Source: Trissonchulus latispiculum (taxonomy: Eukaryota; Nematoda; Enoplea; Enoplida; Ironidae). Taken from it: 64,000 nucleotides of DNA. Shown here one piece after another: positions 7,685 to 30,610 of this stretch (the stretch's first letter is position 1; the number at the start of each line of letters is the position of its first letter). The DNA is taken from contig JASAND010006604.1 in assembly GCA_030248195.1 (NCBI GenBank), positions 1-64,000 on the forward strand. The letters run 5' to 3'. The notes below the pieces were generated by a model. It was not told the origin of the DNA. It ran no database searches and saw nothing but the letters and a program-made list of their open reading frames with translations. Position numbers and translations under genes: made by a program.

Positions 7685-7772
7685 GCCAGGGTGGTTCAAT
7701 CGGAAGAGCATTAGCCTGCATCTTTGGCCTACTTTGGCCTAAAGGTTGTGGGTTGGATTCCCACCTCAGGCC
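7685..7772 (+). repeat. tRNA-derived SINE-like head (copy B)
   Basis: Same A-box-like TGGTTCAATCGG and B-box-like GGTTGGATTCC as at 296-382, in the same relative position within the duplication. Confidence 0.55.
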
Positions 7773-8428: not shown

Positions 8429-9079
8429 ATGAATCGTATAAAATTAGCAGTTGTGTTTTCATTATTTTATTGCTTTCAAATATGCAGTACGAAAGATTGT
8501 CATTTTTTCAAAGAATTTTACTCAAAGCAGGAGTGTGTTGATAGTGGATGCGACGGGTCCATATGCTTAAAACAGTTTGGATGCTACAGATGCTCAACAT
8601 GTGTTCAAGGCATAACGATAGAGGAATGCCGTCGTCAAGGATGCATTGACTGTCAAAAGGAACGTTTTGGTTGCAGAGTGTGCGCTGACCCCCCAAAGCC
8701 CCCTAAAAAGCCAAATATTACCGACACTACGGCCAGTCCACACACTACGGACAGTCCACAGAAACTTGAAGAATCCAAACAAAAATCTATTAATAAAAAG
8801 ATAGCAATCATTGTGGTAGGCGCGATTGGTGGTCTGATTTTTCTTGTTATGGCAATTTTCCTGATACTCTACCTTTGTGGTATTGGAAGAAGTGAGAGAG
8901 TATCCTATGACTGGAGAGAAAAACAGGAGTATCTGAGTGTGGTTGCCGGTGGTCCTCGACCCCCAGCAACCTCCATAGCATCTGTTACTCCAGCCGTACC
9001 ACCTGGAATGGACAGTGGTCAGCCTTATCCGTCTGAGGCTACTTCTATGCCACAACTGCCACCCGGATACGGCTACTAA
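8429..9079 (+). CDS. Cys-rich single-pass membrane protein, paralogue 2
   Basis: A 216-residue intact member of the window's tandem family; the ATG follows the acceptor TTTCACAG|GA by 2 nt. Signal peptide about 1-21. The ectodomain has 12 cysteines with spacing C-x11-C-x4-C-x4-C-x5-C-x2-C-x2-C-x8-C-x4-C-x2-C-x6-C-x2-C. A Pro/Lys/Ser/Thr stalk with a short repeated TTDSP-like segment follows, then one membrane helix (about 130-153), a cytoplasmic YDWREKQEYLSVVAGG box and a Pro-rich tail ending LPPGYGY. PPGY is a PPxY-type WW-ligand motif (known motif class), which suggests coupling to trafficking or ubiquitin-ligase adaptors (inference). Probably a cell-surface protein; ligand and role are not known. 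It differs from paralogue 4 mainly in the stalk and around the membrane segment. Confidence 0.8.
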   Translation: MNRIKLAVVFSLFYCFQICSTKDCHFFKEFYSKQECVDSGCDGSICLKQFGCYRCSTCVQGITIEECRRQGCIDCQKERFGCRVCADPPKPPKKPNITDTTASPHTTDSPQKLEESKQKSINKKIAIIVVGAIGGLIFLVMAIFLILYLCGIGRSERVSYDWREKQEYLSVVAGGPRPPATSIASVTPAVPPGMDSGQPYPSEATSMPQLPPGYGY

Positions 9080-9873: not shown

Positions 9874-10091
9874 AATAATAGTAGATACAATTCCGAAGAG
9901 AAGTGAGTAGTATAAAAACCCAGGTTCCAGGACACTTAGCTAATAGTTCTGGCTTCTACTGGCCATGCGCTTTTACACACTAGTAGCTACAATGAAGTTC
10001 TATACCCTTAGCCTTAAATTGAATTAGCTTTTTACGACCTAAGGATTGTAACAACTATGACCTTGAAATTGTAACTAGCCTTAAAATCCGT

Positions 10092-10120
10092 AGTAGTATA
10101 GGAGAGGACAAATGACCACT
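10092..10120. repeat. Internal copy of the Polinton terminus
   Basis: AGTAGTATAGGAGAG here matches the inverted right end of the element (15 of 15 bases) better than the outermost left end does, which matches for only 9. The 186 bp outside it (9906-10091) may be an added or duplicated terminus. Confidence 0.6.
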
Positions 10121-10203
10121 CAGTAACACAACATAACTTTATTTATTTAACAAGCATATGCATACAATACTTCATCAATACAAGTGTAATTTAATTCAAT
10201 TAG

Positions 10204-12039
10204 TTATTCAATCAATACATGCCCATATGCAAATGAATGGATGCCATCGTCAAGTATATAACGTTTGTCATCATAGGCGCTTAATCCTACCTTACACCGC
10301 TGCACTGTAGTCAGTTGATGACCTCTTCTATCGATACTGCTCATGATATGCCGGGTTCTACCTCCATGCATTAATATTCGCTTATAATCTTCGTGCCTTA
10401 GTCTAACTGACCTATTAAGTCCCTTTGCCGCTGTCTTATCATCACCTTCGCACTTGATGCTATACATCTTTGCCCTTAATCCGACAAACTCGCTTATTGG
10501 CTTACCCTTAACTTCATCCTTCATCTTACCTATCACCTTCTTGTTAGCACTGCTATAAAGTGGGTGGTCCTTAGGGTAGTTACTGGTGTCAAATAGGTTA
10601 ATGTCCTCTCTCATATCCTGGTAAATATCAGGGGTTGTCACGTGGTAGCAAAAGCTGTCTGTGTCTGTGTACAGTAAGCTAACCCTGTCACCATACTTCT
10701 GCCTCATGTAGTTATAGTGAAAGTTGTACATGAGGTATTTTGATAGTTCAAGTACAGTGAATCCTACATATACGGGTTTACATAGCTTGACTGTACGTTT
10801 CTGCATCTGCACTGCTACCAGGTCTTCTGAAAATGCCTCACATGCCTTGTACCTAGGGTTTGCAACTAACTTCTCAAACTTATCTGGGCATGTAACTAGT
10901 CTAACATCTACATGGTTGCGGACGTTCTCCATCGTTTTCCCGAATACCGCATTATTCATCAGTTTGTAAAGATCTTCTTCAAACTTACTTTTCGCCGCTG
11001 CCCTCTTAACCATATTCAACTCAATGTAAGGCTTCATCCAGGCATCCTCCTCAAAGGTCACCCCTCTATGTATCTTCCTAATCACTAACCCTTGATCTAT
11101 GTATTGCTGCAGGGTATGCTTGTGCACGATGTAATGAGTCTTATTACGTAAGTTAGGTATTAACTTCTCACACCGCATGTACCCTCCTTGCTCGTTACTG
11201 TATGGCGATATCATCTGCTCAGTAATGGTAATTCTCTCAGGTGCAAGTGGGTAGTCATTATGAGCGTTGTGTAGATGCTGTGGGTAGTCAAGGTCAACCT
11301 CAAGGATACATGGAACTTCTCTCCATTGCTCCAAGTTGACCATCCACCTAAAGTTGCGCACGGGGAGTTTCTGGACCATTGACCAACCATATAGATTGTT
11401 CATGTCCACATATGTGATGTAAGAGGTTGGCTGCTTAGGGTCATACCCATCGAGCAGTGGGTTATTGGCCTTTGCGTACCGTTGGGCAACCATTGCCACC
11501 CCACCTCTTATACCATCTTCAAAAAACTTGTACATATCTGGATCCGTCAAAAGGTCTAACTCCTGTCCAGTATACTTGAGGCAGGCATCCCAGGCAAATG
11601 AAGGTAGAGTACAGTAGTGGCAAGGATCTAAGCCATACGTTTTCAGGCTAGTCTTGCGAAAGTTCTCTACCACATCTGCCAATAATAGGACATCTGTTCT
11701 CAAGTATTCATCATGATACTGTCCCATATTCTCTATACCTAGCTCACTCCACACAGTCTTTGCATGCTCATAGTCTCGGATGTCAATATCACTATCAGTT
11801 AGTGTGCTGTGGAAGGCTTCAATGGGTGGTAACTGAGCCTCACTAAATCTATCCCACGAGTCCATGTACTCATATGGGTAAACTCCCTTTCTTCTCATCA
11901 GTGAAAGCTTATCTCCGTAGATACTAGATGTAAATGTAAAGTCTTCATCAGTCAGTCCGTCTGCCAGTGTATCCAACGATCTATTCAGAAACTGGTAACT
12001 ATCGATTAGGTTCATCGATGCGCCACTCCTGTTCGACAT
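10204..12039 (-). CDS. Protein-primed-type DNA polymerase B, C-terminal part
   Basis: A 611-residue frame holding the end of the exonuclease domain and the polymerase domain. Visible motifs are Exo III YLRTDVLLLADV (about 112-123), PolA YVDMNNLYGW (about 210-219), PolB MNNAVFGKTMENV (about 361-373) and PolC YTDTDS (457-462), with both catalytic aspartates present. This is the replicative polymerase of Maverick/Polinton-type elements (family knowledge). The N-terminal half lies in the overlapping frame 11999-13531, so a frame change is needed in the region of overlap. The ATG at 12039 is probably not a natural start. An AATAAA on the minus strand lies shortly after the stop. Confidence 0.88.
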   Translation of the reverse strand: MSNRSGASMNLIDSYQFLNRSLDTLADGLTDEDFTFTSSIYGDKLSLMRRKGVYPYEYMDSWDRFSEAQLPPIEAFHSTLTDSDIDIRDYEHAKTVWSELGIENMGQYHDEYLRTDVLLLADVVENFRKTSLKTYGLDPCHYCTLPSFAWDACLKYTGQELDLLTDPDMYKFFEDGIRGGVAMVAQRYAKANNPLLDGYDPKQPTSYITYVDMNNLYGWSMVQKLPVRNFRWMVNLEQWREVPCILEVDLDYPQHLHNAHNDYPLAPERITITEQMISPYSNEQGGYMRCEKLIPNLRNKTHYIVHKHTLQQYIDQGLVIRKIHRGVTFEEDAWMKPYIELNMVKRAAAKSKFEEDLYKLMNNAVFGKTMENVRNHVDVRLVTCPDKFEKLVANPRYKACEAFSEDLVAVQMQKRTVKLCKPVYVGFTVLELSKYLMYNFHYNYMRQKYGDRVSLLYTDTDSFCYHVTTPDIYQDMREDINLFDTSNYPKDHPLYSSANKKVIGKMKDEVKGKPISEFVGLRAKMYSIKCEGDDKTAAKGLNRSVRLRHEDYKRILMHGGRTRHIMSSIDRRGHQLTTVQRCKVGLSAYDDKRYILDDGIHSFAYGHVLIE

Positions 12040-13531
12040 TCAGTTCAAAGCAAAGGTAGTCTTCTAATCCCTTCGGTACACAGGTGATGTCTAACTTAAA
12101 TTCCTTGCTAATCTTCCCAATCTCTTGCATAATTAGGTGCCCGTCATATCGTCTTAGGTTATGGAACATTACAGTTACCGACCGACCCAGTTTATACTTA
12201 AGGTTACACCGCCTATGGGCATACCCCCTGAAGGTGCCACAAATATGACAGTGGTCCCGTGTTGATTCCCCATCTGCAATCGTGCCATGACACAGGTGAC
12301 ATTCACTACCATGCTGAAGGAGTCGCTTGGGTAAACGCGGGTATTTATTCAATCGTTCCTGGTACTGTTGGCCTTTCAGTAGGATGGCTCTAAGGAATTG
12401 CTGCACTGCGTCCTCCCCACGGTAAATCAATGGTTCACCTCGGACAACAGGCATCCCCTCACAACACTGGAGCACATCTACTAACCCAAATGCACATGGC
12501 CTATGACTCTCATACCTATTCGTGTAAGAGGAGTATGGATTAGGTTGACAAGTATCTATCTTCTCCAGTAAACACTCAAAATCTGCATAAATCACATAAG
12601 GTCGCATTAAACGTCTATGATCATTCTGAAATTTTAGTTTAGTTGACGATGGCATTACTGTTATCTGTAAGTTATCAGTACTACAAAGTTTCTGGTGATT
12701 GTTACACTTTTCTTCTGTTGGAAATGGAAACAGGCAATGATTACAAAAGTATTTTCTGTGTCTGTCCTTCCGTTGGTCATGCAGGAGTCTTCCAAGGTTC
12801 TTGATTAGGCAATAGTGCTGATTATCCAGAAGGAGGAGATGAAGATGCTTCTCTCGTTTGGTCCTGGATAGGTATAGGATGTGGACTGATCTGTCGTATC
12901 CATAGACATTGACGGAGACATCATTCTGTCGTTCAAACTTCGGGATATCAGTCAGTTTCATAGGGAACTCCAATCCTGCAAAGTTCAGTTCATCCACAAA
13001 TTGTTGATACTTGGCCACTCGTTCGGCATGATCTTTCGTCGGATGGAGACCTGCCAAGATACTCCACATGAAGCATCTATTGTCAGTATTCTTGGGATTG
13101 ATGATTGCTGTTTTGTTCAGGAGGCTCTTCGGTAGAGGTACGTATGTTGATCCATATAGTGGGCGGTATTTGGCCAGGTGAATATCCAGGTATCGCACAT
13201 GATCGATCACCCATCCTGATCCATTGCGTTGAAATTCTTCGATATTTGTGAGGATGCGGTTAATCATAGAGTTCATAGGCACATCTTCACCAGGAATAAT
13301 GATAGTCTGTTTGCTGGCAAAATAGCTGCTCATCGTTTCATTTGTAATCTCGTTGATGAATAAAATGTGCAGTCTCAATTGCATCTTCAAGGCTCGGTCA
13401 CCAATGAGGCTCTGAATAGCTTCGGTGCAGTCCAATAGGAATTCTTTAGGATCATTGGTTGACTCATCGGGTGTTATGCGGTACCACCGATAGTACCCAC
13501 GTAAAGACGCCGCTTGACGCTGCAAAGTCAT
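11999..13531 (-). CDS. Protein-primed-type DNA polymerase B, N-terminal and exonuclease part
   Basis: 510 residues from the first ATG. Order: an N-terminal region typical of animal Polinton polymerases with a GSGWVID segment (about 104-110), a C2H2-like zinc motif beginning CNHC (263-283), Exo I YADFECLLEKID (about 315-326), an endonuclease-VII-like Cys/His cluster CHLCHGT...DHCHICG (411-432) and Exo II MFHNLRRYDGHLI (about 455-467). The frame stops 41 bp into the overlap with the C-terminal part. Either one recent indel broke the gene or a frameshift is used in expression; the sequence alone does not decide. Confidence 0.85.
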   Translation of the reverse strand: MTLQRQAASLRGYYRWYRITPDESTNDPKEFLLDCTEAIQSLIGDRALKMQLRLHILFINEITNETMSSYFASKQTIIIPGEDVPMNSMINRILTNIEEFQRNGSGWVIDHVRYLDIHLAKYRPLYGSTYVPLPKSLLNKTAIINPKNTDNRCFMWSILAGLHPTKDHAERVAKYQQFVDELNFAGLEFPMKLTDIPKFERQNDVSVNVYGYDRSVHILYLSRTKREKHLHLLLLDNQHYCLIKNLGRLLHDQRKDRHRKYFCNHCLFPFPTEEKCNNHQKLCSTDNLQITVMPSSTKLKFQNDHRRLMRPYVIYADFECLLEKIDTCQPNPYSSYTNRYESHRPCAFGLVDVLQCCEGMPVVRGEPLIYRGEDAVQQFLRAILLKGQQYQERLNKYPRLPKRLLQHGSECHLCHGTIADGESTRDHCHICGTFRGYAHRRCNLKYKLGRSVTVMFHNLRRYDGHLIMQEIGKISKEFKLDITCVPKGLEDYLCFELNVEQEWRIDEPNR

Positions 13532-13777
13532 TATCAATACTGAATAACGGAACTGAATAACATATGTGATACCCTTCTTATTACCACGAAAATTTGAATT
13601 TCATGAAGCAACAAACCATGAAGCAACAAACAACATTTACCCGTAATCATGAAGTTAGCAGTACATTTTAAAAAGCTGACATTTAAAAATTGTGATAATA
13701 CAAAAGGCTGCTTTTATAAATTTAGATTTTTCATAAAGTTACACGAAATGTACAAGACATTACATTAACCAAAATAC

Positions 13778-14116
13778 TTAGTAGTAGTATTCACTTAGGG
13801 CACCACGTAGGTATTCAAGTTCTGTGGTGTTGGCAATCTTAAAGCCAGTCATTTTATCGTGGATAGACTGAAGGCGTCTGTCAGTGTCATAACAGTACTC
13901 CCAACACTGATCCCATTCAATGTAGTGACAGGCACTGGATCTATGACTTAGATCACCCTCGCGACACAGGTGTAGACTGCAGTCCTCTAGTCGGCGGTAC
14001 AGGTGATCACCTTCTACTACGGTGGTAACATTGCCATGAGATAGTTGAATACCATTATCGGTCTCTGTAATGTCTACAGAAGACACTATAGCGATTAGGC
14101 TCAGTAGTAGTAACAT
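13778..14116 (-). CDS. Small secreted Cys-containing protein of the Polinton
   Basis: 112 residues with a clear signal peptide (MLLLLSLIAIVSSVD) and no later membrane segment. Five cysteines are visible (C..SLHLC..., ACHYIEWDQCWEYC), and NVT and NTT are possible N-glycosylation sites. It lies between the protease and the polymerase on the same strand, 36 bp downstream of the protease stop. A TATA-like run (AAAATATATAC on the minus strand) sits just before the ATG. I do not recognise the family; a secreted or envelope-associated accessory protein is an inference. Confidence 0.6.
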   Translation of the reverse strand: MLLLLSLIAIVSSVDITETDNGIQLSHGNVTTVVEGDHLYRRLEDCSLHLCREGDLSHRSSACHYIEWDQCWEYCYDTDRRLQSIHDKMTGFKIANTTELEYLRGALSEYYY

Positions 14117-14152
14117 AGTTCTCTATGTATATATTTTATCCCCTTGAAAACT

Positions 14153-14617
14153 TCACCTTGACTTTTTATGGGATTTCTGGCAATAAGGTGTGGGTTCTAG
14201 TGTCACCCGATCAACAAAGGTCTTGACAATGTTATCGTTAGTGTCACTTCTTCGCCTCAGATAGTTGACAATTGAGTCCATTGATCTTCCTCGGGACCTG
14301 TGGTGAAGGAAGTAAATGCAGTACTCCCCACATACATCAGTAGTGAAATCTTGCAACTGAATGCGATTATACTGTAATTCCCTCTTGCCAATGAATGACA
14401 TGAAGAGGATAGGTGGTAGGCCATAGCTGTCAAAATATTCTACCCTGTTATCCTCTAGCCACATTGCAACCCAGTGTTCACCAGCCTCACCGGATGCCTT
14501 AGTGTTAGCAACAAGACAGCCTGGGCGGTACCGTGGTAGCTTATCACTGGGAAATACTCCTAGGAGAGGAACTTTGCAGTCTTTCCTTAAAGTCTCAAGG
14601 ATCTCGCGGGTGTTCAT
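14153..14617 (-). CDS. Adenain-like cysteine protease
   Basis: 154 residues. The catalytic set of the adenovirus-type (C5/Ulp1-fold) maturation protease can be read: His48 in GEHWVAMWL, Asp63 in YFDSYG, Gln89 in QLQDF and Cys96 in DVCGEYC. Gln and Cys are 7 residues apart, as in adenain. Such enzymes process capsid and core proteins during virion maturation. Shorter than adenain (about 200 residues) but in the range of Polinton proteases. Its ATG overlaps the capsid stop codon as ATGA, so the two genes are tightly coupled. C-terminus basic (KSHKKSR). Confidence 0.85.
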   Translation of the reverse strand: MNTREILETLRKDCKVPLLGVFPSDKLPRYRPGCLVANTKASGEAGEHWVAMWLEDNRVEYFDSYGLPPILFMSFIGKRELQYNRIQLQDFTTDVCGEYCIYFLHHRSRGRSMDSIVNYLRRRSDTNDNIVKTFVDRVTLEPTPYCQKSHKKSR

Positions 14618-15933
14618 AGTGCGTAGTCAAAGAATGGTGTTCGATTATAGTCTATTGATATGAGATTATCAAATTCTCCGTATATAATGATTTCAACACC
14701 CTGAGGATAAGTGGCGGCTGGTAGGGCCTTCTCTAGTTGCATCCTGAGTGATACGTCACCTTCCTTGATCAGTTGCATTGCCCCAGTGTCAATATTGTCT
14801 GGTGTCAGGTCAAATGCAAATATAGTGTATCCCTTGGCAAAGTCTTCGTAGGAAATGTCTGCTCCCTTCGTGGATCCTGCCATGTCATTGCCTTCGTAGA
14901 GGTATATGAAGGGCATCGTATACTGGAACTTATCCCATGCCATCTTCATTGGCTGCTTTGGTACAAACTCATCACCATACTTTAGGGCAATCTCGCTGAC
15001 ATTACAGTGTTGGAACTCGAGGGGATTATGCTTCTGACTTCCATTGAATGCCTCTGACTTGACCATTGCCACCAGGACTCTACGAGGAAGTTGACCGGTG
15101 AATATGGAATTCTCTACAACCGTCTGCACACCAGGAGCGATATGCCTGGTGACCAGTTTAGTCCTCCTGATTGGATACTTGGCTGTCTCATGGTCTCTTA
15201 GTACACCCTCAATTGCCATGGTGAGAGAGTCTTGTGGTCTGACTTTCCACACATACCAACGTATATCGTCAACTAATAGTTTGTATCCACTGGTTGCTGA
15301 CTGGAGGAGGATGTCGTCACTGTTACGGTGTAATTCCAGACTCAACTGGCATTCACTCAGAAGGTATCGGTCTTGCTTGAATAGGTCACAATGAAGGGGT
15401 CCTGCCACCACGACATACCGACCATCTGTAAATGGTATACCCCGATGCTTAGCTGCCGTAGTGGAGATATCGTTGAAATCACTGTCCTTTGCAAATAGGT
15501 TGCTCTGTAGATGAGACGTCTTTGCTTCTTTCCCAAAGTTGGCGATAGTCTCCAGGTAGGCTCCATAGTGATAAAGGTCGCCACTGTTGTAAATTTCCTT
15601 GTCGGATAGTTTGACCACTAATCGTCTAATGAATGACTTTGCTAGCATATTGATGGGTGCCACTGAGATACTACCATCTGCTGCCTTTGCTACTGCCTTT
15701 CCATCGCTGTCAGTTATCCGTAGCTTTAGATAAAGGTAGTTCCGGTTCAGGTCAAGCATGTAAGAATCCTTTGGTACAAGGAATAGGTATGGACCATTAC
15801 TGGTTACAGGATTTAGGGGATAAATTTCTGCCATGTAGCCACTCTCCACACTGACCTGAGTTGGAGGTAGCGAGAAGAGATCCATTTCGGACTTAAAGCC
15901 CGGCATAGACCGTTCATCTACTTGCTTAGCCAT
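14614..15933 (-). CDS. Polinton major capsid protein (double jelly-roll, hexon-like)
   Basis: 439 residues. The N-terminal region reads DLFSLPPTQVSVESGYMAEI, then YLFLVPKDSYMLDLNRNYLY and YLKLRI, and the C-terminus GVEIIIYGEFDNLISID. This pattern matches the animal Polinton capsid family (the nematode F54H12.2-like group), which is predicted to form the trimeric capsomer. No signal peptide or membrane segment. It lies between the pX-like protein upstream and the protease downstream, the usual morphogenesis cluster. The frame is intact. Assignment rests on family resemblance and gene order. Confidence 0.82.
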   Translation of the reverse strand: MAKQVDERSMPGFKSEMDLFSLPPTQVSVESGYMAEIYPLNPVTSNGPYLFLVPKDSYMLDLNRNYLYLKLRITDSDGKAVAKAADGSISVAPINMLAKSFIRRLVVKLSDKEIYNSGDLYHYGAYLETIANFGKEAKTSHLQSNLFAKDSDFNDISTTAAKHRGIPFTDGRYVVVAGPLHCDLFKQDRYLLSECQLSLELHRNSDDILLQSATSGYKLLVDDIRWYVWKVRPQDSLTMAIEGVLRDHETAKYPIRRTKLVTRHIAPGVQTVVENSIFTGQLPRRVLVAMVKSEAFNGSQKHNPLEFQHCNVSEIALKYGDEFVPKQPMKMAWDKFQYTMPFIYLYEGNDMAGSTKGADISYEDFAKGYTIFAFDLTPDNIDTGAMQLIKEGDVSLRMQLEKALPAATYPQGVEIIIYGEFDNLISIDYNRTPFFDYAL

Positions 15934-15978
15934 TGAAATAATTATTAGTAAATAATTGGTATTACATAGAGTGGGTTT

Positions 15979-16365
15979 TTATGGGCTGTAAATGTCACGC
16001 TTCAATCTCTTAACTTTGCGTCTATGTGGTCTGCTTCCAATGCCTTCCCCTTGCTGTATTACCTTTCCACTGTTCTCCAGCAGGCGTCCAATGGCTGCCT
16101 TCCCATGTCGTTTGAGTGCTTCCTTTGGATCTTCACCTCTATTCAAGTAATCACGAGCCACATCTCCGGCTGTCTGAAACGCTTGCCTGCCTGCCTCTAG
16201 ACCTACACGACGTACTACTGGCCAAATAAAGCGTCCGATGCCTCTTAAGAGACTGCCGAGGCCATCTCCTCGCTGATACCTTTGGCCGGCGTAGAAACCA
16301 GACCCTCTCTGTATCAGGTGCAGTTGCCAGTCTTCAACGGTTTCTGGATGATATCTGGTCCTCAT
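15979..16365 (-). CDS. pX/pVI-like basic core protein
   Basis: 128 residues, strongly basic. It begins with a YHPETVEDW segment and a Gly-rich stretch GSGFYAGQRYQRGDGLGSLL, followed by an amphipathic helix-prone region RFIWPVVRRVGLEAGRQAF and a basic tail (RRKVKRLKRD). Short proteins of this design, next to penton and capsid genes, are the adenovirus core pX/pVI-like proteins of Polintons and adintoviruses. The likely role is genome condensation or capsid-core linkage, and it is a probable protease substrate (GSGF and GLGS sites are candidates only). Its start overlaps the penton-like gene's end by 32 bp in another frame. Confidence 0.75.
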   Translation of the reverse strand: MRTRYHPETVEDWQLHLIQRGSGFYAGQRYQRGDGLGSLLRGIGRFIWPVVRRVGLEAGRQAFQTAGDVARDYLNRGEDPKEALKRHGKAAIGRLLENSGKVIQQGEGIGSRPHRRKVKRLKRDIYSP

Positions 16366-17125
16366 CTTTCTTGAAGTGTAACTTGATAACTATACTACCA
16401 TACTCAAAATGTACACTCCTGCCAATGTGATTGTTTATATGGACTTTAATGCTATTGACCACATGCTTATTCACGGGGACGTAGTGAGGTTCAGGACAGT
16501 ACTGAATGGTATCTCCATACTCTTCACCCGCCTTTACTACTGCCAGCAGGTTGCCGGTAGTTGTGCCCACCAGCTGTTCTTTCACGATATCACAATGGAC
16601 TTGAAGATAATGAAAGTTAAGGCTGGGTGGACGTTGTGCGTAGAATTTCTTTGTCCTCAGGGCATCTCTGCCATCGGAGGGATCAACGCTGAATTTCTGA
16701 GAGTCAAAGCCAAGCATGCGCACAATGGTAGGAGCAAATTGGATAAACCCGAAGTTGGGTCTTTCAAGGTGTTCTAGATTTTCGTATAAGTCTAGGTAGA
16801 CTCGATCCTTTTCCTGATCATAGACGAAACGTATAGGAGGTGATTCCTGACGTTCATTAAGAATTGACTGAATGGTAAGGTTGATGGTATTTATCAGATC
16901 GTGAAGGTTATAGTACCGCCGCCTGGGTATATTACTAACTGCTCTCTCGTCTGCCTCAAATAGGACTATGATGAATGTGTCTGCATTAGAATTAATTGCT
17001 TTCCAAGTGTGCGGATAGATAAAGTCAACCATTGCAACGGACCACCTGCCATGTAGATGCAGAGGGTGAGCTAGCTGGTTCTCAAAGGTTCCGTCCTTTC
17101 CGGTCACATACAGGTAGAAACTCAT
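16334..17125 (-). CDS. Penton-like minor capsid protein
   Basis: 263 residues, N-terminus SFYLYVTGKDGTFENQ, then LHGRWSVAMVDFIYPHTW and ADTFIIVLFE. Beta-rich with no signal peptide. The N-terminal pattern and its position upstream of pX, major capsid and protease fit the single-jelly-roll penton of Polintons. The C-terminal part contains HVVNSIKVHINNHIGRSVHF, also typical of this family as I know it. Intact frame. Confidence 0.72.
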   Translation of the reverse strand: MSFYLYVTGKDGTFENQLAHPLHLHGRWSVAMVDFIYPHTWKAINSNADTFIIVLFEADERAVSNIPRRRYYNLHDLINTINLTIQSILNERQESPPIRFVYDQEKDRVYLDLYENLEHLERPNFGFIQFAPTIVRMLGFDSQKFSVDPSDGRDALRTKKFYAQRPPSLNFHYLQVHCDIVKEQLVGTTTGNLLAVVKAGEEYGDTIQYCPEPHYVPVNKHVVNSIKVHINNHIGRSVHFEYGSIVIKLHFKKDEDQISSRNR

Positions 17126-17295
17126 CTTCGCTTCCGGAAGTCACGGTCATATTTCTTCATACAGTGCAAAACACAATACATATATACATACACAATAGTC
17201 ATCATAGTGTCAAATTTGTTCTTCGTTGTATGTCTTCATATTATTCTTCGTGATATTTGTATCATCATCATTTCGTAGTATCCATCATATCATCA

Positions 17296-17511
17296 TCATT
17301 TCGTAGTATCCATCATATCTTCATCATCGAGAATAAGTTCTTCGACTACTTCATCTTCATTGAATAGTTGCTTCATATCGACATGTAGGATTCGTCGCCA
17401 TCCAATACCAGGAATAGAAATGATTATCTTTTGCCTCGGATATCGTCTGCATTTATTCTTGTGATAGCGGCTGAGGCGGATCAGGCTCTGGAGTGCCTTA
17501 TAGATACCCAT
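17296..17511 (-). CDS. Small charged protein, unknown (Polinton)
   Basis: 71 residues. The N-terminal half is basic (RYHKNKCRRYPRQK); the C-terminal third is strongly acidic (NEDEVVEELILDDEDMMD). No signal or membrane segment. On the same strand as the capsid block and upstream of the penton-like gene. A 33-bp imperfect direct repeat (ATCATCATTTCGTAGTATCC) overlaps its 3' end region. Not recognised. Confidence 0.5.
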   Translation of the reverse strand: MGIYKALQSLIRLSRYHKNKCRRYPRQKIIISIPGIGWRRILHVDMKQLFNEDEVVEELILDDEDMMDTTK

Positions 17512-17559
17512 GGTGCAATATATGGAATAGAGGTATTTACACCAGTATCGTAGGCCTAC

Positions 17560-18009
17560 TTATTGACTATAGAGTTGGTATATCTGGTCTGCTGTAAAAC
17601 TGACAGGACCAACAAAGCCACAAAGGACACGCTTATCTTGATCCAGGCAAAGAGTTGTCTCGTTATATATGGACGTGTAGGGACATGGAATAGATCCGTT
17701 AATATAGACCGGACACTGGAAGTTTAGACAATTGTATATGAATTGGCGGATCTCGTGAAAACTATCAAGTGATACAAGGTGCTCAGTCCAACCATTATGA
17801 ATAAAGATGGCATTGTCTATCGTAACGGAGTCCTTCAGTGGTGGTAGTTTACACTGGGTATGCTGTGACAACAAAATCGCTAATACAATCGTAGACAATA
17901 AAAATTTTATGAGAAGGCTTGTGATTATACAGGGAACTCCTTTGACCAATTGGAGTTTCGTAAAGTTTAAAAAGGAATGCCCTTCTTGGGAATTTGCACC
18001 AGTAGCCAT
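17560..18009 (-). CDS. Single-pass membrane or secreted protein, unknown (Polinton)
   Basis: 149 residues. A hydrophobic segment (about 29-47, LLIKFLLSTIVLAILLS) is followed by an outer region with several cysteines (CLNFQCPVY, IPCPYTS, LCLDQDKRVLCG) and possible N-glycosylation sites (NGS, NET). The 28 residues before the hydrophobic segment would make it a type II protein; if the true start is elsewhere (spliced leader exon), the segment would serve as a signal peptide. Family unknown. Confidence 0.55.
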   Translation of the reverse strand: MATGANSQEGHSFLNFTKLQLVKGVPCIITSLLIKFLLSTIVLAILLSQHTQCKLPPLKDSVTIDNAIFIHNGWTEHLVSLDSFHEIRQFIYNCLNFQCPVYINGSIPCPYTSIYNETTLCLDQDKRVLCGFVGPVSFTADQIYQLYSQ

Positions 18010-18145
18010 AGTCAGGATCTTGTACGGCGCACTTTAACAGTACCTCTATTCGCTTCTTATTACCATAGAATTTAGATGCCGTCTTTGTATTAGCCCTACT
18101 ACCATGCTTTTTATAGACGTGGGGTGATACCTTAGTGTTCCACAT
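17849..18145 (-). CDS. Alternative overlapping basic frame (Polinton)
   Basis: A 98-residue frame starting MWNTKVSPHVYKKHG, rich in Lys/Arg for its first 60 residues, then running antiphase through the start of the 149-residue gene. The portion upstream of 18009 (KHGSRANTKTASKFYGNKKR) has coding character and could be a short core-like protein or a 5' exon. Weak evidence. Confidence 0.3.
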   Translation of the reverse strand: MWNTKVSPHVYKKHGSRANTKTASKFYGNKKRIEVLLKCAVQDPDYGYWCKFPRRAFLFKLYETPIGQRSSLYNHKPSHKIFIVYDCISDFVVTAYPV

Positions 18146-18182
18146 TAATAAGTGAGGGTGATGTGATACCAAGGGAGTAACA

Positions 18183-18677
18183 ATGATTGTTAATGTTGTT
18201 CTCAGTGGACGCTTTGACAGGGAACTTCACCTAACGAACATTCCTAACATTAGACTCTATCGTGGATTTATTGGCGGTAGTCTGAAACACGAGGAGGCAA
18301 CTTTCCAATTATTCACCAGTGGTAGTTTTGTTTGCCTCGGATGTAAATCAATCGAACGAGCTAATCAGTGTATTCGCCAACTTGCAGGCGCTCTTAATGT
18401 CGGTATTCTTCGCGAAGGCGAAGTGGTGAACCTGGTGGGATCCTTCTCAGTTGGCAGGTATATAGACCTAAGGAATTTATATGAAGGTATCCGGCATACC
18501 CATCAAGTTTGCTATGAACCAGAGCTATTTAATGGTCTCACGTGTAAGATTGCCAAAGTTACTGCACTCATCTTCCACACTGGCAAGGTCATATTAACTG
18601 GCGCTCGAAGTGAGTCTGCCCTATCACATGCAAGGTCTTTAGTTAATAAGAAGGTGATAAGGTTTAAAGTTCATTAG
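18183..18677 (+). CDS. TATA-binding-protein-like protein carried by the Polinton
   Basis: 164 residues, almost exactly one TBP core made of two direct repeats (about 1-72 and 82-156). Repeat 2 carries YEPELFNGL (111-119) and ALIFHTGKVILTGA (128-141), which match the TBP signature. Repeat 1 carries the parallel FQLFTSGSFVCLGCKS (41-56). Of the four DNA-kinking phenylalanines of TBP, Phe116, Phe131 and Phe44 have counterparts; the fourth, in repeat 1, looks substituted or shifted (RLYRGF). TBP nucleates transcription initiation by all three RNA polymerases, so this protein may direct element promoters or redirect host initiation (inference). It is transcribed away from the capsid block; the 173 bp between it and the 149-residue gene is a candidate bidirectional promoter. 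Confidence 0.85.
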   Translation: MIVNVVLSGRFDRELHLTNIPNIRLYRGFIGGSLKHEEATFQLFTSGSFVCLGCKSIERANQCIRQLAGALNVGILREGEVVNLVGSFSVGRYIDLRNLYEGIRHTHQVCYEPELFNGLTCKIAKVTALIFHTGKVILTGARSESALSHARSLVNKKVIRFKVH

Positions 18678-18683
18678 TGCATC

Positions 18684-18842
18684 ATGTCTGCCCGAAGCCT
18701 GTTGAACGAACTGTTGCAAAAGGCCCTGCGACAAAGTCCACCTATTTGCATTGAGATTACCGGTCATTATGTTGCAGTCATGACTATAGGCAGTAAGTCC
18801 TGGACAAGCTCACAATGTCCTGATCCACGTACTGCCCATTGA
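18684..18842 (+). CDS. Short protein after the TBP-like gene, frame disrupted
   Basis: 52 residues starting MSARSLLNELLQKALRQSPP, 6 bp after the TBP-like stop on the same strand. The coding character appears to continue in another frame from 18790, so this and the next entry may be two halves of one gene separated by a frame change near 18790. Not recognised. Confidence 0.4.
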   Translation: MSARSLLNELLQKALRQSPPICIEITGHYVAVMTIGSKSWTSSQCPDPRTAH

Positions 18843-19071
18843 GGAGGTGTCTCGTAAAGCCTACGGTACGTTATGTCACAGCGACGAACATCTCATCAGA
18901 CGTGAATGCGGATTACCTCCAAGACCTCATATCTACGAAATTGATGCAGTCAGGGATAAGATGAGGGACCTACGTGAGTACAAAAGATATCGCAGAAGTA
19001 TTCAACCTATCTACAATATGCTAGACAGGCTAGAAGCAGAAATGCTCAAAAATCCGTGTTTTCATGGCTAA
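18790..19071 (+). CDS. Basic protein frame, probable continuation of the preceding gene
   Basis: Open from 18790 to the stop at 19071 (about 93 residues). The only bacterial-type start is GTG at 18847, so a eukaryotic start is missing and this is best read as the distal part of the 18684 frame. It contains CGLPPRPHIYEID and a charged helix (RDKMRDLREYKRYRR). No known family. The break could be an indel or a short unrecognised intron (a GTAAGT donor-like site is at 18794). Confidence 0.4.
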   Translation, partial: AVSPGQAHNVLIHVLPIEEVSRKAYGTLCHSDEHLIRRECGLPPRPHIYEIDAVRDKMRDLREYKRYRRSIQPIYNMLDRLEAEMLKNPCFHG

Positions 19072-19185
19072 CTGCCTACCTACCAACTAATGTTATCCGT
19101 AACATTTCGTTTACTGTATGCAATAGTGATTATGCAATACAATACTGTTATTCAATGGTTTACAGTAGTGTTATCTAATACCATA

Positions 19186-19258
19186 TAATAATAATAATAA
19201 TAATAGTCAATGATATTATGCATTGTTTACTGTACATTAGTAATGCCATGTAATAGTC

Positions 19259-19294
<36 letters not shown>
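19186..19294. repeat. AAT-type microsatellites (two runs)
   Basis: Two TAA/AAT trinucleotide runs (about 19186-19205 and 19260-19294) separated by a TAGTCAATGATATTATGCA-type sequence that itself recurs as TAGTCAATGGTGTTACGCA. They lie between the two accessory genes of the Polinton. Confidence 0.9.
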
Positions 19295-19295
<1 letters not shown>

Positions 19296-19329
19296 GTCAA
19301 TGGTGTTACGCAATATTAGTCCATAATTG

Positions 19330-20028
19330 TTAGTGTTCTTTACAGTCCTGGTGATTCCATGGGGATACGAACCATTCCGGCACATTCCATTGTTTCACCA
19401 TAGAATTTCCAATCCACTCGATGAATACGACGGCACGGTTGTCGCATCCCAAGGGCCCAAGGGCCACCGCTGCGTCCAGTCTCGCTGCTTGTACCGTAGG
19501 GAAGGTGTCCTGGCTTTCTCTTAGCAAATATTTGCTCTTTGTGTAAATCTTCCATGTGACTCCTTTCTCCTTGGTTCCTCCTTCGAACAGTTTGGCCAAG
19601 TTGTACTGCTTCGACTTCACCAAGGCCTCGTGGAGCAGGGGCACGATATCTTTGCTCCGCTTCAGTCGCAGTAGGAGATCAAACACTCCATCATATCTTG
19701 TTTCGGATTTGATGATATCTCGATAATCCGGGGTTATGCGCCGATGTTCAACCATGTAGTCTGCCACTGGAGCGGGATCCACTTCATCACAAAGAATAAC
19801 CAAATTGTCTATGATTTTCTCCACAGATGGTGAACCTGAAACATTTCACACAACAAATAATGCTAATCTAAAAACTATGAAATGTTCAAACTGTAAAATG
19901 TAATGTTTAAAATTGTAATATACAAGAATTCAAAAATTTGAACGACTAAAAAATGCAATCATTAAAAATACAATCATTAGAAATACAACGGATAAAAATG
20001 CTACAATTAAAATCTTACCGGAATTCAT
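19330..20028 (-). CDS. CARD-like death-fold protein, two exons (Polinton accessory gene)
   Basis: Exon 1 is 10 nt (20028-20019, ATG at 20028) and ends in a strong donor GTAAG. The intron 20018-19836 (183 nt) ends in TTTCAG. Exon 2 runs 19835-19330. The frame is continuous across the junction, giving 171 residues. The first ~85 residues of exon 2 form a CARD-like helical pattern: VADYMVEHRRITPDYRDIIK, then YDGVFDLLLRLKR and IVPLLHEALVKSKQYNLAKL. CARDs mediate homotypic assembly in caspase and innate-immune signalling, so interference with host cell death is a natural hypothesis. The C-terminal half (VTWKIYTKSKYLL..., VPEWFVSPW) is not recognised. The intron suggests capture from, or adaptation to, a spliceosomal host. 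Confidence 0.7.
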
Positions 20029-20249
20029 TGTTGTTGATGATGTAAAGTACTGGTGATTCAAATGTCAGTAAGGTTAATAAACCTGCCAAACTTGCAATAT
20101 ATGTCTAAACTTTGCAGCATTCTTGTGCTAGGTTTCATAAAATAGGCTGTACACATATATCAATTTTGTATTGCCTTGTTCATTTGCTAGTTAATTATTG
20201 AACAAATGTTGTATACTCTTTTTCTTTTAACTTTTAGCCTATTCCCAGT

Positions 20250-20800
20250 TTCACGTAATTGTTGTCATATTCATTACACATAAATTTTCATAGTCAACTT
20301 TAATTATTATTAACTAATTAGTTAACCTATAATTATCAACAGGTGACCGAAGTTAGTTCATTATTACTTTATTACACAGGCACCATAATTAACCCAACAT
20401 GTGTCAACAATCTTACGTAATTGGAGACATAAAATTATAATCACCCATTTTCAACCATAGTTAACTTTAATAAATTATTACTAACTAATTAGCTAACTAC
20501 TAAACAAAATTAGTTGACCGAAGTTAGTTCACAGTTTGCTCTTTACGTTGACATAAAACTTTTCACATAAAGTTTTCCCAATCTTGCGTAATTGGAGACA
20601 TAAAATTAAAATCACCCATTTTCAGCCAATTTTCATAGTCAACTTTAACCAATTATTACTAACTAATTAGTCAACAAATAATTACCAACAGGTGACCGAA
20701 GTTAGTTCAACATATGCTCTTTAAGTTGACACCAAAATTAGTGTGATAAGTGTTGTCAATATTACGTAATTGGAGACATAAAATTTTAAACCAATGTTTC
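20250..20800. repeat. Tandem repeat, about 175-bp unit, in the Polinton right end
   Basis: CGTAATTGGAGACATAAAATT recurs near 20414, 20587 and 20764, and GACCGAAGTTAGTTCA, AACTTTAATTATTA and ACTAATTAG blocks recur between them, giving units of about 173-177 bp. AT-rich with no open frame. Confidence 0.8.
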
Positions 20801-20859
20801 TACCCCTTTCCTTGTTTACGTCTTTAATTTCATTGAGACAGGTGCAATCAAGACAGCTT

Positions 20860-21290
20860 ACAGGGAAGAAAATTTTAAGCAAGCAGGGAGAAAGACTTTT
20901 GACAGGTTTGAGTCCTCAGTATGCTAAAGATATGCTAACACTAGAAGGCAGCTAGCAGGGAAAGAAAAGTAGTGACAGGTTTGAGTCCTCAGTATGCTAA
21001 AGATATGCTAACACTAGAAGGCTGCTAGCAGGGAGAAAATTTTAAACAAGCAGGGAGAAAATTTTTTGACAGGTTTAAGTCCTCAGTGTGTTGAAGATAT
21101 GCTAACACTAAAAGGCAGCTAATAGGGAAAGAAAATTTTAAACAAGCAGGGAGAAAGACTTTTGACAGTTTTGAGTCCTCAGTATGCTAAAGATATGCTA
21201 ACACTATCAGGCAGCTAGCAGGGTGAAAAGTAGTGACAGGTTTGAGTCCTCAGTATGCTAAAGATATGCTAACACTAGCAGGCATCTAAC
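20860..21290. repeat. Tandem minisatellite, 71-96-bp units, in the Polinton right end
   Basis: GACAGGTTTGAGTCCTCAGT followed by ATGCTAAAGATATGCTAACA starts near 20901, 20974, 21068, 21164 and 21235. The variable spacer contains AGCAGGGAGAAA. The unit length alternates between about 72 and 95 bp by loss or gain of the AATTTTAAACAAGCAGGG segment. No gene. Confidence 0.85.
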
Positions 21291-21870
21291 ATCAGTATAT
21301 TCTGAAGTACGTAACTAACAATCTTGTCTTCTTTAAGTGTTTGGTACATGTCTTCCGTTTCAAGGTTAATACAAAGGTCCAGATGTCATATATAAGGAAA
21401 TGCAGGAAAAGAAAATTATAGTTGTTAAGGGAAGAAGTGGAAAATTTTAGTTGATAAGGGAAGAAAATTTTGCAATAATATTTTTGGTCTATACGATGCT
21501 GAGATAGATAGGTAAGAATCTATTGGCAAACAGTCAGGTAAATAAAAAAGTTTGAAAAAAGTTTGAAAAATGTTACTTCATATTTACTTAATTAGACCAT
21601 TAATTAATGAACACTAATTAGGCAGGTAATCTAACTATAGTCTAGCAAACTTAAAGTTAAATACGTAGGCAATATAGTCCAATAACACTATTACAAATTT
21701 TAATACACTGTTACAAACAAGCTTAAATCCAAGCTAAGAAAATTGGCCAACAATGACCTTGAGAACATCTGCCTCCATGATTAATGACCTTACCTGTATG
21801 ATTAATTAGCTCCCATTTGACTCCAGCACACCTGTACAAACCGGTCCCATTTCATCTCTCCTATACTACT

Positions 21871-22212
21871 GAAGTGTCCTTAATAAAATGACTCCTTCTG
21901 CAAAATTAAATACCTATTTGATCCACAAATTAATCAATAATTCATAAAAAAGTCTCAATCACGCACAAACTCAACCAGGTATTTGCTGTGTACGCTGCTC
22001 CTGTTTTCGATCAGTATCTTAGTGCCTGCGGTTTGAAATAGGTGAGAATTCGCTGTTTGGAGCAAGTCAGACTGGCTCTGGGCTGACGCTTTTGTCTAGG
22101 TTTCGACGGATGTTGTGATATGCTACTCTTCGCTTTAGTTTTTCTAGCTGTTTGAGCAAAATCGATCGATATGTTTATTTTCGAATTTATATCGAGACAG
22201 TAATGGCCATAA
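21871..22212. repeat. Segmental duplication copy B, right part
   Basis: After the second GAAGTG the sequence resumes the copy C alignment (TCCTTAATAA, CACGCACAAACTCA, GCCTGCGGTTTGAAATAGGT) until GGCCATAATAA, where the two copies part. This is the evidence that the 12-kb element interrupts the duplication. Confidence 0.85.
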
Positions 22213-25803: not shown

Positions 25804-26431
25804 TTTGTTGGTTACAGATCTTGCACTGACAGACACGCAGCCATGTCTGATCAAGATTTGTCATTTTTCCATTGTAACTTTAATTTATAATTAGATGCCA
25901 ACATACATGCTACAGGTTAAAACCAAAGTTGAGTCATGCCACTAGCACTGGTGTTCAGAGGTTTTCTGAATCTTCTGCTATTCAAATTGTTTTTGCTTTG
26001 TTTGTCGGGCACCGGCGATTGTGAAGTTTTTTTCCTATTCTCACTTTTCCTTCTCCAGTTCCTTAGCTTAGTTCCGTCGTGCTTAAGATAAAAGTGTTAA
26101 ATATTGTTTGTACAAAAACGTTTCCATCAAATTTAGTTATGTTGGTTGTCTCCAGCTACCACTTTGACGTTTGGCTGGACTGGTCGAATGATAATCATCA
26201 TCACCATCATCAATAACCGCTATCTTAATCAACAACTCCAACTCAGATTAACCTCTCTGCAATCAGCACTCCCTCGAAAACTGCCAGTAACTATCTCAGT
26301 TATTGTGACTATGTACCTGCCATGAAACGCTTTCACTGATTACGTTCCACGAATACTTATCTTGCGTTGGAATGCGTCATCTGGAACTACTGCAGATGCA
26401 ATCCAGTGCTCGATCAACCTGTTTTGCAAGA

Positions 26432-27109
26432 ATGAACTATTTAATTGCATCTGTTGTTCTATTATTGTTTTACATTCACAAATGCGCATTGCATTCTGTC
26501 TGCCATTCAAGGCAGAACTGCATAGACACAGGATGCGACGAAAGTCGATGTAAGAAACAAATTGGCTATATGTCCACTTGCTTCGTGTGTATTCCATGCT
26601 CTAAAGGTCTATCAAAAGAGCAATGCTATCGTCAAAATTGCACAAAGTGTGAACGGTGGGATTTTTACAATAATTATGAGTGCTTTCGGTGCATAGAGCC
26701 GACTACAACATCACCTTCCACAACAACAGCAACGTCCACAGTACCAACCGAAAACCCAAAACCCAATGCTGAAACAACCGTGAAAACTGAAAATGATAAA
26801 GGCAACATAAAGGCATACAATAAAAAGATAGCAATCGGTGTGGTAGGCTCACTAGGTGGTGTGATTTTTCTGACTATCGCTATTTTTCTGGTACTTTACT
26901 TTTGCGGTATTGGAAGAAGCAAGAGGACGACTTTTGACTGGAGAGAAAGGGAGGCCTACATGAATATGGTTACAGATGGTCCTGGACCCCCACCACCCAC
27001 AACAACACCTGTTACTCCTGACAAAACACCTGGAGACCTTGGAGGTCAATCTTATCCGTCTAGTTCCCCACCCGCTATGCCTCAACCGCCGCCCTGCTAC
27101 AACCGCTGA
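26432..27109 (+). CDS. Cys-rich single-pass membrane protein, paralogue 3 (most diverged)
   Basis: 225 residues from the ATG that follows TTTTGCAAG|A, equivalent to the acceptor-ATG arrangement of the other copies; a longer upstream frame exists but lacks family support. Signal peptide MNYLIASVVLLLFYIHKCA, then a Cys-rich ectodomain with altered spacing (CIDTGCDESRC, CFVCIPCSKGLSKEQC, CTKC, CFRC). A Thr/Ser/Pro-rich stalk (TTTSPSTTTATSTVPT, mucin-like) follows, then one membrane helix (IAIGVVGSLGGVIFLTIAIF), a FDWREREAYMNMV box and a Pro-rich tail ending PQPPPCYNR. It lacks the PPGYGY end. It is not in the near-identical duplication block, so it is an older paralogue. Confidence 0.78.
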   Translation: MNYLIASVVLLLFYIHKCALHSVCHSRQNCIDTGCDESRCKKQIGYMSTCFVCIPCSKGLSKEQCYRQNCTKCERWDFYNNYECFRCIEPTTTSPSTTTATSTVPTENPKPNAETTVKTENDKGNIKAYNKKIAIGVVGSLGGVIFLTIAIFLVLYFCGIGRSKRTTFDWREREAYMNMVTDGPGPPPPTTTPVTPDKTPGDLGGQSYPSSSPPAMPQPPPCYNR

Positions 27110-28491: not shown

Positions 28492-29124
28492 ATGAAGCGT
28501 ATAAAATTAGCAGCTGTGTTATCATTATTTTATTGCTTTCAAATATGCAGTACGAAAGATTGTCATTTTTTCAAAGAATTTTACTCAAAGCAAGAGTGTT
28601 CGGACAGTGGATGCGACAAGAGCATATGCTTAAAACAGTTTGGATGCTACATATGCTCAACATGCGTTCAAGGCATAACGATAGAGGAATGCCGTCGTCA
28701 AGGATGCATCAACTGTCAAAAGGAACGTTTTGGTTGCAGAGTCTGCGCTGACCCCCCAAAGCCCCCTAAAAAGCCAGATATCATTGACACTACGGACAAT
28801 CGACAGAAACATGAAGAATCCAAACGAAACTCCAGTAATAAAAAGATAGTAATCATTGTGGTAAGCGTGATGGGTGGTGTGATTTTCATAACTCTGGCAA
28901 TTTTTCTGATACTCTACCTCTGCGGTATTGGAAGAGCTAAGACGATCACTGGTGATTGGAGAGAAAAGCAGAAGGAGTTGAATGTGGTTGCAGGTGGACC
29001 TCGTGCGCCACCGGCTCCCACAACACCTGTTGGTCCAGCCGTGCCACCTGAAATGTACAGTGGTCAGCCTTATCCGTCTGGAGCTACTTCTATGCCACAA
29101 CTGCCACCCGGATACGGCTACTAA
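28492..29124 (+). CDS. Cys-rich single-pass membrane protein, paralogue 4
   Basis: 210 residues, intact, with the ATG 2 nt after GTTTCACAG. Signal peptide about 1-21, the 12-Cys ectodomain as in paralogue 2 (here SDSGCDKSIC, GCYICSTC, ITIEECRRQGC, ERFGCRVC), a short charged stalk, a membrane helix (IVIIVVSVMGGVIFITLAIF), then ITGDWREKQKELNVVAGG and a Pro-rich tail ending PQLPPGYGY. The membrane-to-tail half is almost identical in DNA to paralogue 5 although the ectodomains differ. AAAAATAAAT near 29296 is a possible polyadenylation signal. Extracellular partner unknown. Confidence 0.8.
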   Translation: MKRIKLAAVLSLFYCFQICSTKDCHFFKEFYSKQECSDSGCDKSICLKQFGCYICSTCVQGITIEECRRQGCINCQKERFGCRVCADPPKPPKKPDIIDTTDNRQKHEESKRNSSNKKIVIIVVSVMGGVIFITLAIFLILYLCGIGRAKTITGDWREKQKELNVVAGGPRAPPAPTTPVGPAVPPEMYSGQPYPSGATSMPQLPPGYGY

Positions 29125-29939: not shown

Positions 29940-30610
29940 AATAATGGTAGGTACAATTCCGAAGAGAAGTGTCCTTAATAAGATGATACCTTATTCAAAA
30001 TTAAATATGATCCACAAATTAATTGATAGGTCATAAAAAAGTCTCATCACGCACAAACTCAGCCAGGTATTTGCTGTGCACGCTGCTCTCGTTTTCGATT
30101 AGTATCTTAGTGCCTGCGGTTTGAAATAGGTGAGAATTCGCTGCTTGGAGCAGTTCAGACTGGCTCTGAGCTGGCTGACGCTTCTGTCTAGGTTTTTGTG
30201 AAATGCTACTCTTCGCTTTACAGTTTTTCTAGCTTTTTGAGCAAAATCGGTCAATATATTTTATTTTCGAATTCATATTGAAACAGTAATGGCCATAATA
30301 ATAGTAATAATTATCAAGTTAAAACTTAGGCAGCTACTGTTCAGTGAACTTTTCAATTAAAGAGTGAAAGAATTTTGTACTACAAATTAGCACGATTGTA
30401 GCCTTAAGGTGGCCAAAAGCAGAATATGAAATTCAACAAATTTATATGCTTTAACAGCAAAGCTTTCCTAGAAATTCAGTGTCCAGACCACTTGACAACG
30501 TAGGTGCAATTTTTAATAATTAGCTTAATTTTAGATTCTTATGCTTGACTCGAAGACACGGTAACACGGTAACACGGTTTCATCTCTAATCTACAGCTTC
30601 TAGATCAAGC

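Follow-up and report, generated by a model that had tools for sequence, protein, structure and literature searches.

Results

A Polinton with a TBP gene in the window

The window, i.e., the whole 64,000-nucleotide stretch of Trissonchulus latispiculum DNA that was analysed, contains an inserted element in which a gene for a TATA-binding protein (TBP) lies together with polymerase, protease, and capsid genes (Table 1). The boundaries of the element can be read from the host locus, which is present twice in the window (~7.6–9.9 and 21.9–22.2 kb versus 27.6–30.3 kb): the second copy has a single GAAGTG (29966–29971) and no insertion, whereas in the first copy GAAGTG flanks the element on both sides. 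The element thus has the terminal inverted repeats and the 6-bp target-site duplication of Polintons, with short AGTAGTATA ends and an empty site for comparison. The terminal motif occurs once more at 10092–10114, 186 bp inward from the left end, and this inner copy matches the right end over 23 nt (87%), which is longer than the match of the outer copy. Repeat arrays with spacings of 171–178 bp and 71–96 bp are found at 20302–21294 in the right part of the element. In or beside the duplicated host segment, 8429–9079, 26372–27109, and 28492–29124 encode a cysteine-rich, apparently single-pass membrane protein family, and the segment also has tRNA-Cys-like sequences at 7685 and 27709.

The DNA polymerase (PolB), putatively protein-primed, is present here in two overlapping frames. 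The capsid genes comprise a double-jelly-roll major capsid protein (MCP), which has 222 homologues at E≤1e-3, several of them with PF21738, its own PF21738 score being below the cut-off, and a minor capsid protein (mCP) that was assigned by position and by homology to the related contig L001 (see below). The Ulp1/adenain-like protease was recognized through its homology to the L001 protease, whose own match to Peptidase_C5 (8e-4) falls short of the Pfam threshold. Many of the 222 MCP relatives lie on short contigs, and the best is 62% identical. The CARD-like gene was matched, mostly in part and with 48–99% identity, in 12 of 20 related stretches that were fetched from the genome.

For ATPase and integrase, the window gave no match at E≤0.1. 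A blastn comparison with the full copy L045 breaks between window positions 17141 and 17195, which correspond to L045 positions 5882 and 2386. Because ATPase and integrase are absent and about 3.5 kb is missing relative to L045, the window copy is, judged from its sequence, an internally deleted Polinton. The Polinton context that the earlier note had claimed holds, as evidenced by PolB, the terminal repeats and target-site duplication, the capsid genes, and the related copies.

Table 1. Features of the element and its insertion site (window coordinates).
Feature	Position	Strand	Remarks
Target-site duplication GAAGTG, left	9900..9905	.	
Whole inserted element, 11,965 bp	9906..21870	.	Empty paralogous site aligned across the insertion
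Terminal inverted repeat AGTAGTATA, left	9906..9914	+	Runs on into TATAAAAAC
PolB, C-terminal open frame	10204..12039	-	PF03175 2.1e-12; PHROG DNA polymerase 7e-11
Frame upstream of/overlapping PolB, read as PolB N-terminal part	11999..13537	-	Weak endonuclease VII match
'sec', short ORF	13778..14116	-	Signal-peptide-like start (by eye); present in other copies
Adenain/Ulp1-like cysteine protease	14153..14617	-	35% identical to L001 protease
Late-directed box CATAAAAAG	14162..14170	-	Before 'sec', inside protease frame; 9/9 copies examined
MCP, double jelly roll	14614..15933	-	33% identical to L001 MCP
Late-directed box CATAAAAAC	15975..15983	-	50 nt before MCP ATG; same in 7/7 copies examined
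Basic protein, 'pX'-like	15979..16365	-	41% identical to L001
mCP	16334..17125	-	Position and L001 homology (30% over 80 aa); no family match
Internal deletion site	17141..17195	.	~3.5 kb (ATPase, further genes, integrase) missing versus full copies
g17299, short ORF	17296..17559	-	Conserved in other copies
Membrane-protein-like ORF (TM, by eye)	17560..18009	-	Near head of minus-strand block; no Pfam match
'bas', overlapping basic frame	17849..18172	-	Start adjoins TBP start
Late-directed box TATAAAAAG	18107..18115	-	Near TBP, inside 'bas' frame
TBP gene, lineage A	18183..18677	+	164 aa plus stop
CARD-like gene, apparently two exons	19330..20030	-	PF00619 E 0.13, below cut-off; splice-like signals by eye
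Terminal inverted repeat, right (reverse complement of AGTAGTATA)	21862..21870	-	
Target-site duplication GAAGTG, right	21871..21876	.	

The TBP core and its contact residues

The TBP reading frame is intronless and agrees exactly with the one that the earlier note had described. PF00352 matches the product in two stretches (3.3e-29, 101 bits, family cut-off 22.9), and an archaeal TBP model spans residues 2–158 (2.3e-18). This homology is far beyond chance; the length of the frame is the lesser evidence, since two out of 200 mononucleotide-shuffled versions of the element had a longest ATG frame of at least 164 codons. The motifs that had been pointed out, YEPELF (residues 111–116) and LIFHTGKVILTGA, are present, and the signature of repeat 1 is real though weaker. 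Three of the four intercalating phenylalanines (99, 116, 190, and 207) are found, as had been claimed, in the form of F44, F116, and F131, and the fourth is a tyrosine, yeast F99 being aligned to Y26. Repeat 1 is the more degraded half, with several DNA contacts lost; its identity to a metazoan TBP is 26%, compared to 34% for repeat 2.

A PDB fold search with a model of the protein, a check that the earlier note had proposed, returned 44 matches at E≤1e-3, all of which were TBPs or TBP fusions, and the model has the predicted saddle fold. As a single-sequence AF2 prediction reached a pLDDT of only 34, the model leans on TBP relatives. Among the BFVD fold matches of the model are the herpesvirus proteins U58 and ORF75 and several iridovirus and ascovirus proteins that do not bear the name TBP. 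As a TBP, the protein would be predicted to bind and bend TATA DNA. In a single-sequence search of 5.8 billion proteins, the window TBP gave 52 candidates, none of them at E≤1e-3; scans of IMG/VR with the window TBP, the MCP, a PolB piece, an MCP alignment, the L001 TBP, and a TBP alignment resulted in no confirmed relative, and PADLOC gave no match.

Fifteen element TBPs, comprising the four lineages A–D of this genome and L001, were aligned for a comparison of contact residues, whose roles we presume as generally assigned, except for those taken from PMC12529657. Asn69, Asn159, Phe116, and Phe207 are kept in 15/15, and position 188 is acidic in all of them. Glu186 is kept in lineage A, in three of four lineage C proteins, and in L001, and is replaced by Asp in D and by Thr in B. 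Phe190 is retained in 12/15, and Phe99 is Tyr in lineage A and Phe in all other element TBPs. Thr124 has been lost in all 15 proteins, and so have Lys138 and Tyr139. Archaeal TBPs, which function without TFIIA, likewise have no Tyr139. At position 191, the proline has been replaced by Asn in A, by Ala in C, and by Cys in D, whereas B, L001, the host protein, and 11 cellular TBPs have Pro. The proline that matches Pro191 favours T at the first TATA position, according to the available part of PMC12529657.

Recurrence of the gene

The genome to which the window belongs (734 Mb) was searched with PF00352, and the best 150 of 1271 first-look candidates were scored. All 150 were above the cut-off, three with an internal stop, and they collapse to at least 140 places, two of them on contig C14517 and at least 138 at distinct non-host places. 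We interpret the two C14517 places as exons of an ordinary TBP gene of the host: one match runs over a stop, probably at an exon edge, and the other groups with a metazoan TBP at 89%. Membership in elements was checked on 20 fetched stretches, not place by place for the 138 non-host places; these stretches cover the divergent side and were chosen by hand in descending PF00352 rank, with places close to a contig end passed over. At E≤1e-3, all 20 have TBP and 18 have integrase, which is partial in some; ATPase was seen in 12, the window MCP in nine, and PolB in eight. The rve integrase of related copies matches at 4e-15, and the ATPase count refers to matches with ATPase-like frames of L001, whose own Pfam matches are weak. 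In two stretches, L044 and L051, only accessory element genes were seen. In L044, element genes oppose each other at close distance (927–1418 on the minus and 2799–3131 on the plus strand), and the same is seen on C18705, C3106, and C4808, which would fit insertion of elements into or next to each other.

Eight full lineage-A copies share one gene order, in which the CARD-like gene and TBP are followed by the divergent genes TM, g17299, ATPase, two further genes, and integrase, and then by mCP, the basic protein, MCP, protease, and 'sec'. PolB comes after 'sec' in both stretches that reach that far, L045 and L049. In a count from the MCP side, 96 of 1650 matches were scored, and a TBP lies within 12 kb in at least 46 of these 96 and in at least 27 of the best 30, which are lower bounds because the TBPs were taken from the matches listed; among these listed matches, MCP and TBP are on opposite strands in 46/46 pairs. 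The 23 top MCPs, including that of the window, are 100% identical in protein, and therefore the Polinton family has probably been active recently.

An MCP-alignment search of bacterial and archaeal assemblies gave two loci, L001 and L002, which we read as foreign contigs: they are apparently eukaryotic virus-like contigs that were binned into bacterial MAGs (Planctomycetota, Breoghania). L001 (11.6 kb) has homologues of mCP, the basic protein, MCP, and protease and an ATPase-like frame, and its TBP (1.8e-45) points away from the structural genes. The same contig also has an rve integrase, whose match (3.7e-7) narrowly misses the Pfam cut-off. The window and L001 have mCP, pX, MCP, protease, and TBP in common. 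A PolB fragment in L001 had been suspected by eye, and tblastn against the window gave no confirmation. L002 has capsid genes, but the contig ends before the TBP position, and no TBP was found in L002 or its genome. The search for the gene in other elements, as suggested by the earlier note, thus found it at no fewer than 138 non-host places, in 20/20 stretches of which 18 have integrase, and in L001. The divergent placement that had been described stands for the window and L001 and does not extend to lineage C, in which TBP follows integrase on the same strand.

Lineages and selection

The element TBPs fall into lineage A (the window type), B (L019, L052, L053, and L015, the last being the same locus as L040), C (L008, L009, L011, and L014), and D (L050), plus L001. 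In L052, where the TBP has Polinton genes next to it, a 328-residue ORF on the minus strand around 985–1464 has an N-terminal NADAR domain (PF08719, 4.3e-30) fused to TBP (PF00352, 8e-34). In the tree, whose long branches may mislead, A–D are separated (84%) from L001 and from all cellular TBPs, and L001 falls with eukaryotic TBPs (69%). Given this split, the trees are compatible with several captures as well as with one. The TBPs of the window and L001 have six residues and a two-residue deletion in common that are absent from 11 cellular TBPs. As the best rival pairing, that of the window TBP with Methanocaldococcus jannaschii (M. jannaschii), already has five residues, though no gap, this agreement is only suggestive of a common origin.

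For 20 lineage-A TBPs, the median dN/dS was 0.097 (range 0.04–0.54; 149 of 190 pairs with dS>0.05), and pairs with the window TBP gave 0.07–0.16; the set consists of intact matching frames, without shorter or divergent copies such as L024, L032, and L054, and the pairs are non-independent. These ratios indicate that selection preserves the protein among the lineage-A copies compared. For a useless passenger, dN/dS would be expected near 1.

Strand-specific boxes at the structural genes

A motif, YATAAAAAS, was picked after the sequences had been inspected, and the lineage-A copies in which it was counted are non-independent. Each of the eight full lineage-A copies has four to five such boxes on the structural-gene strand and none on the opposite strand. 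In all eight, the boxes lie near TM and before g3828, MCP, and 'sec', and in four there is one after integrase. L001 has three boxes on the same relative strand and none on the other, 36, 34, and 97 nt before the starts of ATPase, g3828, and MCP, as these starts were chosen by us. Shuffled sequences reached the box count in 0/200 cases each for L041, L045, L048, and L049, and in 1/200 for L001. A box lies at most 120 nt upstream of 3/11 gene starts in the window and of 3/10 in L001, which was reached in 0/300 shuffles each.

In 7/7 copies examined, the CCCATAAAAACCC stretch before MCP is constant, in contrast to the remainder of the leader, which has diverged; L042 and L049, in which the MCP match does not start at the first codon, were left out of this comparison. 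The MCP box takes in the pX stop codon. None of 20 lineage-A TBP genes has an own-strand box within 260 nt, and 19/20 have a late-directed box within that distance. The position of this TBP-proximal box differs between two sublineages, and one of the 20 copies is without it; in the sublineage other than that of the window, CATAAAAAG occupies another TBP-proximal position. TATAAAAAG near TBP was considered as a conserved divergent promoter and rejected, since 10/20 copies do not have it there and it lies inside an overlapping frame.

Outside lineage A, L040 has two T-first boxes opposite to TBP, L038 two C-first boxes on the TBP strand, and L050 one C-first box. No box was found in L036, L037, L039, L052, and L053, the other members of lineages B, C, and D examined, or in L054, a diverged A-like copy. 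The late-box pattern is thus not shared by lineages B, C, and D. Ordinary TATAAAT or TATATAA sequences are present at −35 to −62 upstream of TBP in 4/4 lineage B and 4/5 lineage C copies, and the fifth C copy has CATATAT. Where Pro191 is kept, the boxes start with T (L001 3/3, L040 2/2); where it is lost, C prevails (3/5 or 4/4 in lineage A, 2/2 in L038, 1/1 in L050). Pro191 loss may hypothetically be paired with C-first boxes, the numbers being small and some of the boxes being on other strands. The idea of an own promoter specificity, as proposed in the earlier note, appears to gain support from the strand-specific boxes of lineage A.

Discussion

Our analysis identifies 18183–18677 as a Polinton TBP gene, and we consider it probable that its product is the element's own promoter-selecting initiation factor, which uses YATAAAAAS late boxes and recruits host TFIIB and Pol II. 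The element TBP is likely to direct the RNA polymerase of the host towards the structural genes that the element encodes. TBP would be made early, ahead of the late genes, because no lineage-A copy out of 20 has a box that points at TBP. It would then bind the YATAAAAAS boxes before the late (structural) genes and, once bound, recruit host TFIIB and Pol II with loss of the TFIIA-side control, as the YEPELF TFIIB face is kept and Lys138 and Tyr139 are gone. In lineage A, the Asn in place of Pro191 may go along with boxes that mostly start with C. What speaks against this reading is the choice of the motif after inspection, the overlap of some boxes with coding sequence, the irregular occurrence of boxes in B, C, and D, the ordinary TATA sequences of the B and C TBP genes, and the DNA contacts lost from repeat 1 of the window TBP. 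More tentatively, and with somewhat less confidence than doubt, we suggest that several lineages run a Polinton initiation programme in which the element TBP takes the place of host TBP at late promoters. Recruitment of TFIIB and Pol II would be retained and TFIIA-type control given up, and one lineage would follow a shifted DNA code (Pro191 to Asn, C-first CATAAAAA).

Other functions would have to account for the same boxes and residues. A decoy that occupies TFIIB or host TATA boxes and so lowers host transcription would be in line with the TFIIB face kept in lineage A, with the loss of TFIIA-side and several DNA-contact residues, and with the stronger degradation of repeat 1. Such a host shut-off is nevertheless unlikely, as Asn69, Asn159, Phe116, and Phe207 are kept in all 15 aligned proteins and strand-specific boxes near late genes are unexpected for a decoy. 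The element ends could also be the target: the left end reads AGTAGTATAAAAAC, with a box-like TATAAAAAC in the terminus and AGTAGTATA in the inverted repeat itself, so that TBP could be a DNA-bending accessory factor in replication, integration, or packaging. We regard this as improbable, because the right end continues differently from the left and has no full box there, and because the boxes of full copies are inside the element, on the structural-gene strand.

Just as improbable in our view is that one or more captures from hosts have brought in a TBP of the ordinary kind, which serves ordinary TATA boxes without a special late programme. The grouping of L001 with eukaryotic TBPs, apart from A–D, would agree with several captures, the TBP genes of B and C have ordinary TATA boxes, and B, C, and D do not have the late-box pattern, but the loss of Thr124 in all 15 proteins speaks against it, as do the residues and the deletion that the window and L001 share to the exclusion of the 11 cellular TBPs. 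The intronless frame would agree with a pseudogene or a recent retrocopy of host TBP that the element picked up by chance, and a recent host retrocopy was among the findings by which the earlier note would have been overturned. This possibility is negligible, being ruled out by the low identity to metazoan TBP in both repeats, a dN/dS of ~0.1, the occurrence of the gene in numerous elements as well as on a foreign contig, and the ordinary appearance of the host's own TBP (L005).

That a TBP gene recurs among the elements and is under selection suggests that eukaryotic DNA viruses of very small size have an element-specific core-promoter system. To our knowledge, how Polintons order early and late expression is an open question. 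The element TBPs are a natural set with changed contacts (Thr124, Pro191, Lys138/Tyr139) in which DNA reading and partner choice can be studied, and the many copies, some with an identical capsid protein, make the system approachable in the host.

Comparison with known systems

With cellular TBPs (PF00352, eukaryotic and archaeal), the element proteins have in common the two repeats, the predicted saddle fold, the DNA-facing Asn residues, most of the intercalating Phe residues, and the acidic TFIIB-contact site. They differ in that the N-terminal tail is absent, the stretch from the first strand to the stirrup of repeat 1 is shorter in lineage A, Thr124, Lys138, and Tyr139 have been lost, and Pro191 is replaced in A, C, and D. 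The element itself resembles Polintons/Mavericks in PolB, rve integrase (in full copies), protease, double-jelly-roll MCP, mCP, terminal inverted repeats, and 6-bp target-site duplication, and differs from them in its TBP, which is missing from the Polinton gene list in the available part of PMC11071308, which contains none of the words TATA, TBP, and TFIID. A limited literature search found no published description of a TBP in Polintons or adintoviruses; both words occur in PMC4602308, PMC12085832, and PMC5469831.

In herpesviruses, the KSHV protein ORF24 mimics TBP and drives late-gene expression (PMC12529657). It is similar in being viral and TBP-like, in its link to late promoters, and in its use of host Pol II, the latter two being predictions for the element protein. 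ORF24 is, however, of much greater size, no longer has the TFIIB acids, and acts together with viral partners according to that source, whereas the element protein is a bare TBP core and keeps the acids in lineage A. The 164-residue window protein has no large C-terminal DNA-binding domain as in the vTBPs of the UL87/ORF24 type, and thus the herpesvirus late-gene mimics may be taken as a functional precedent that is differently built. Giant viruses and mirusviruses are eukaryotic DNA viruses that likewise encode TBPs, as seen in the BFVD matches and in the available part of PMC10132985, which reports TBP in 59% of mirusvirus genomes. In size, these viruses far exceed the element, and RNA polymerase genes are found in mirusviruses (PMC10132985), whereas none was seen in the 12-kb element, a deleted copy. 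TBPs in giant viruses and mirusviruses were thus known already, and what appears to be new is a Polinton group with its own TBP. Should the element TBP replace the host TBP at late promoters, it would follow that even elements of ~15 kb carry a promoter switch that is otherwise seen in herpesviruses and giant viruses.
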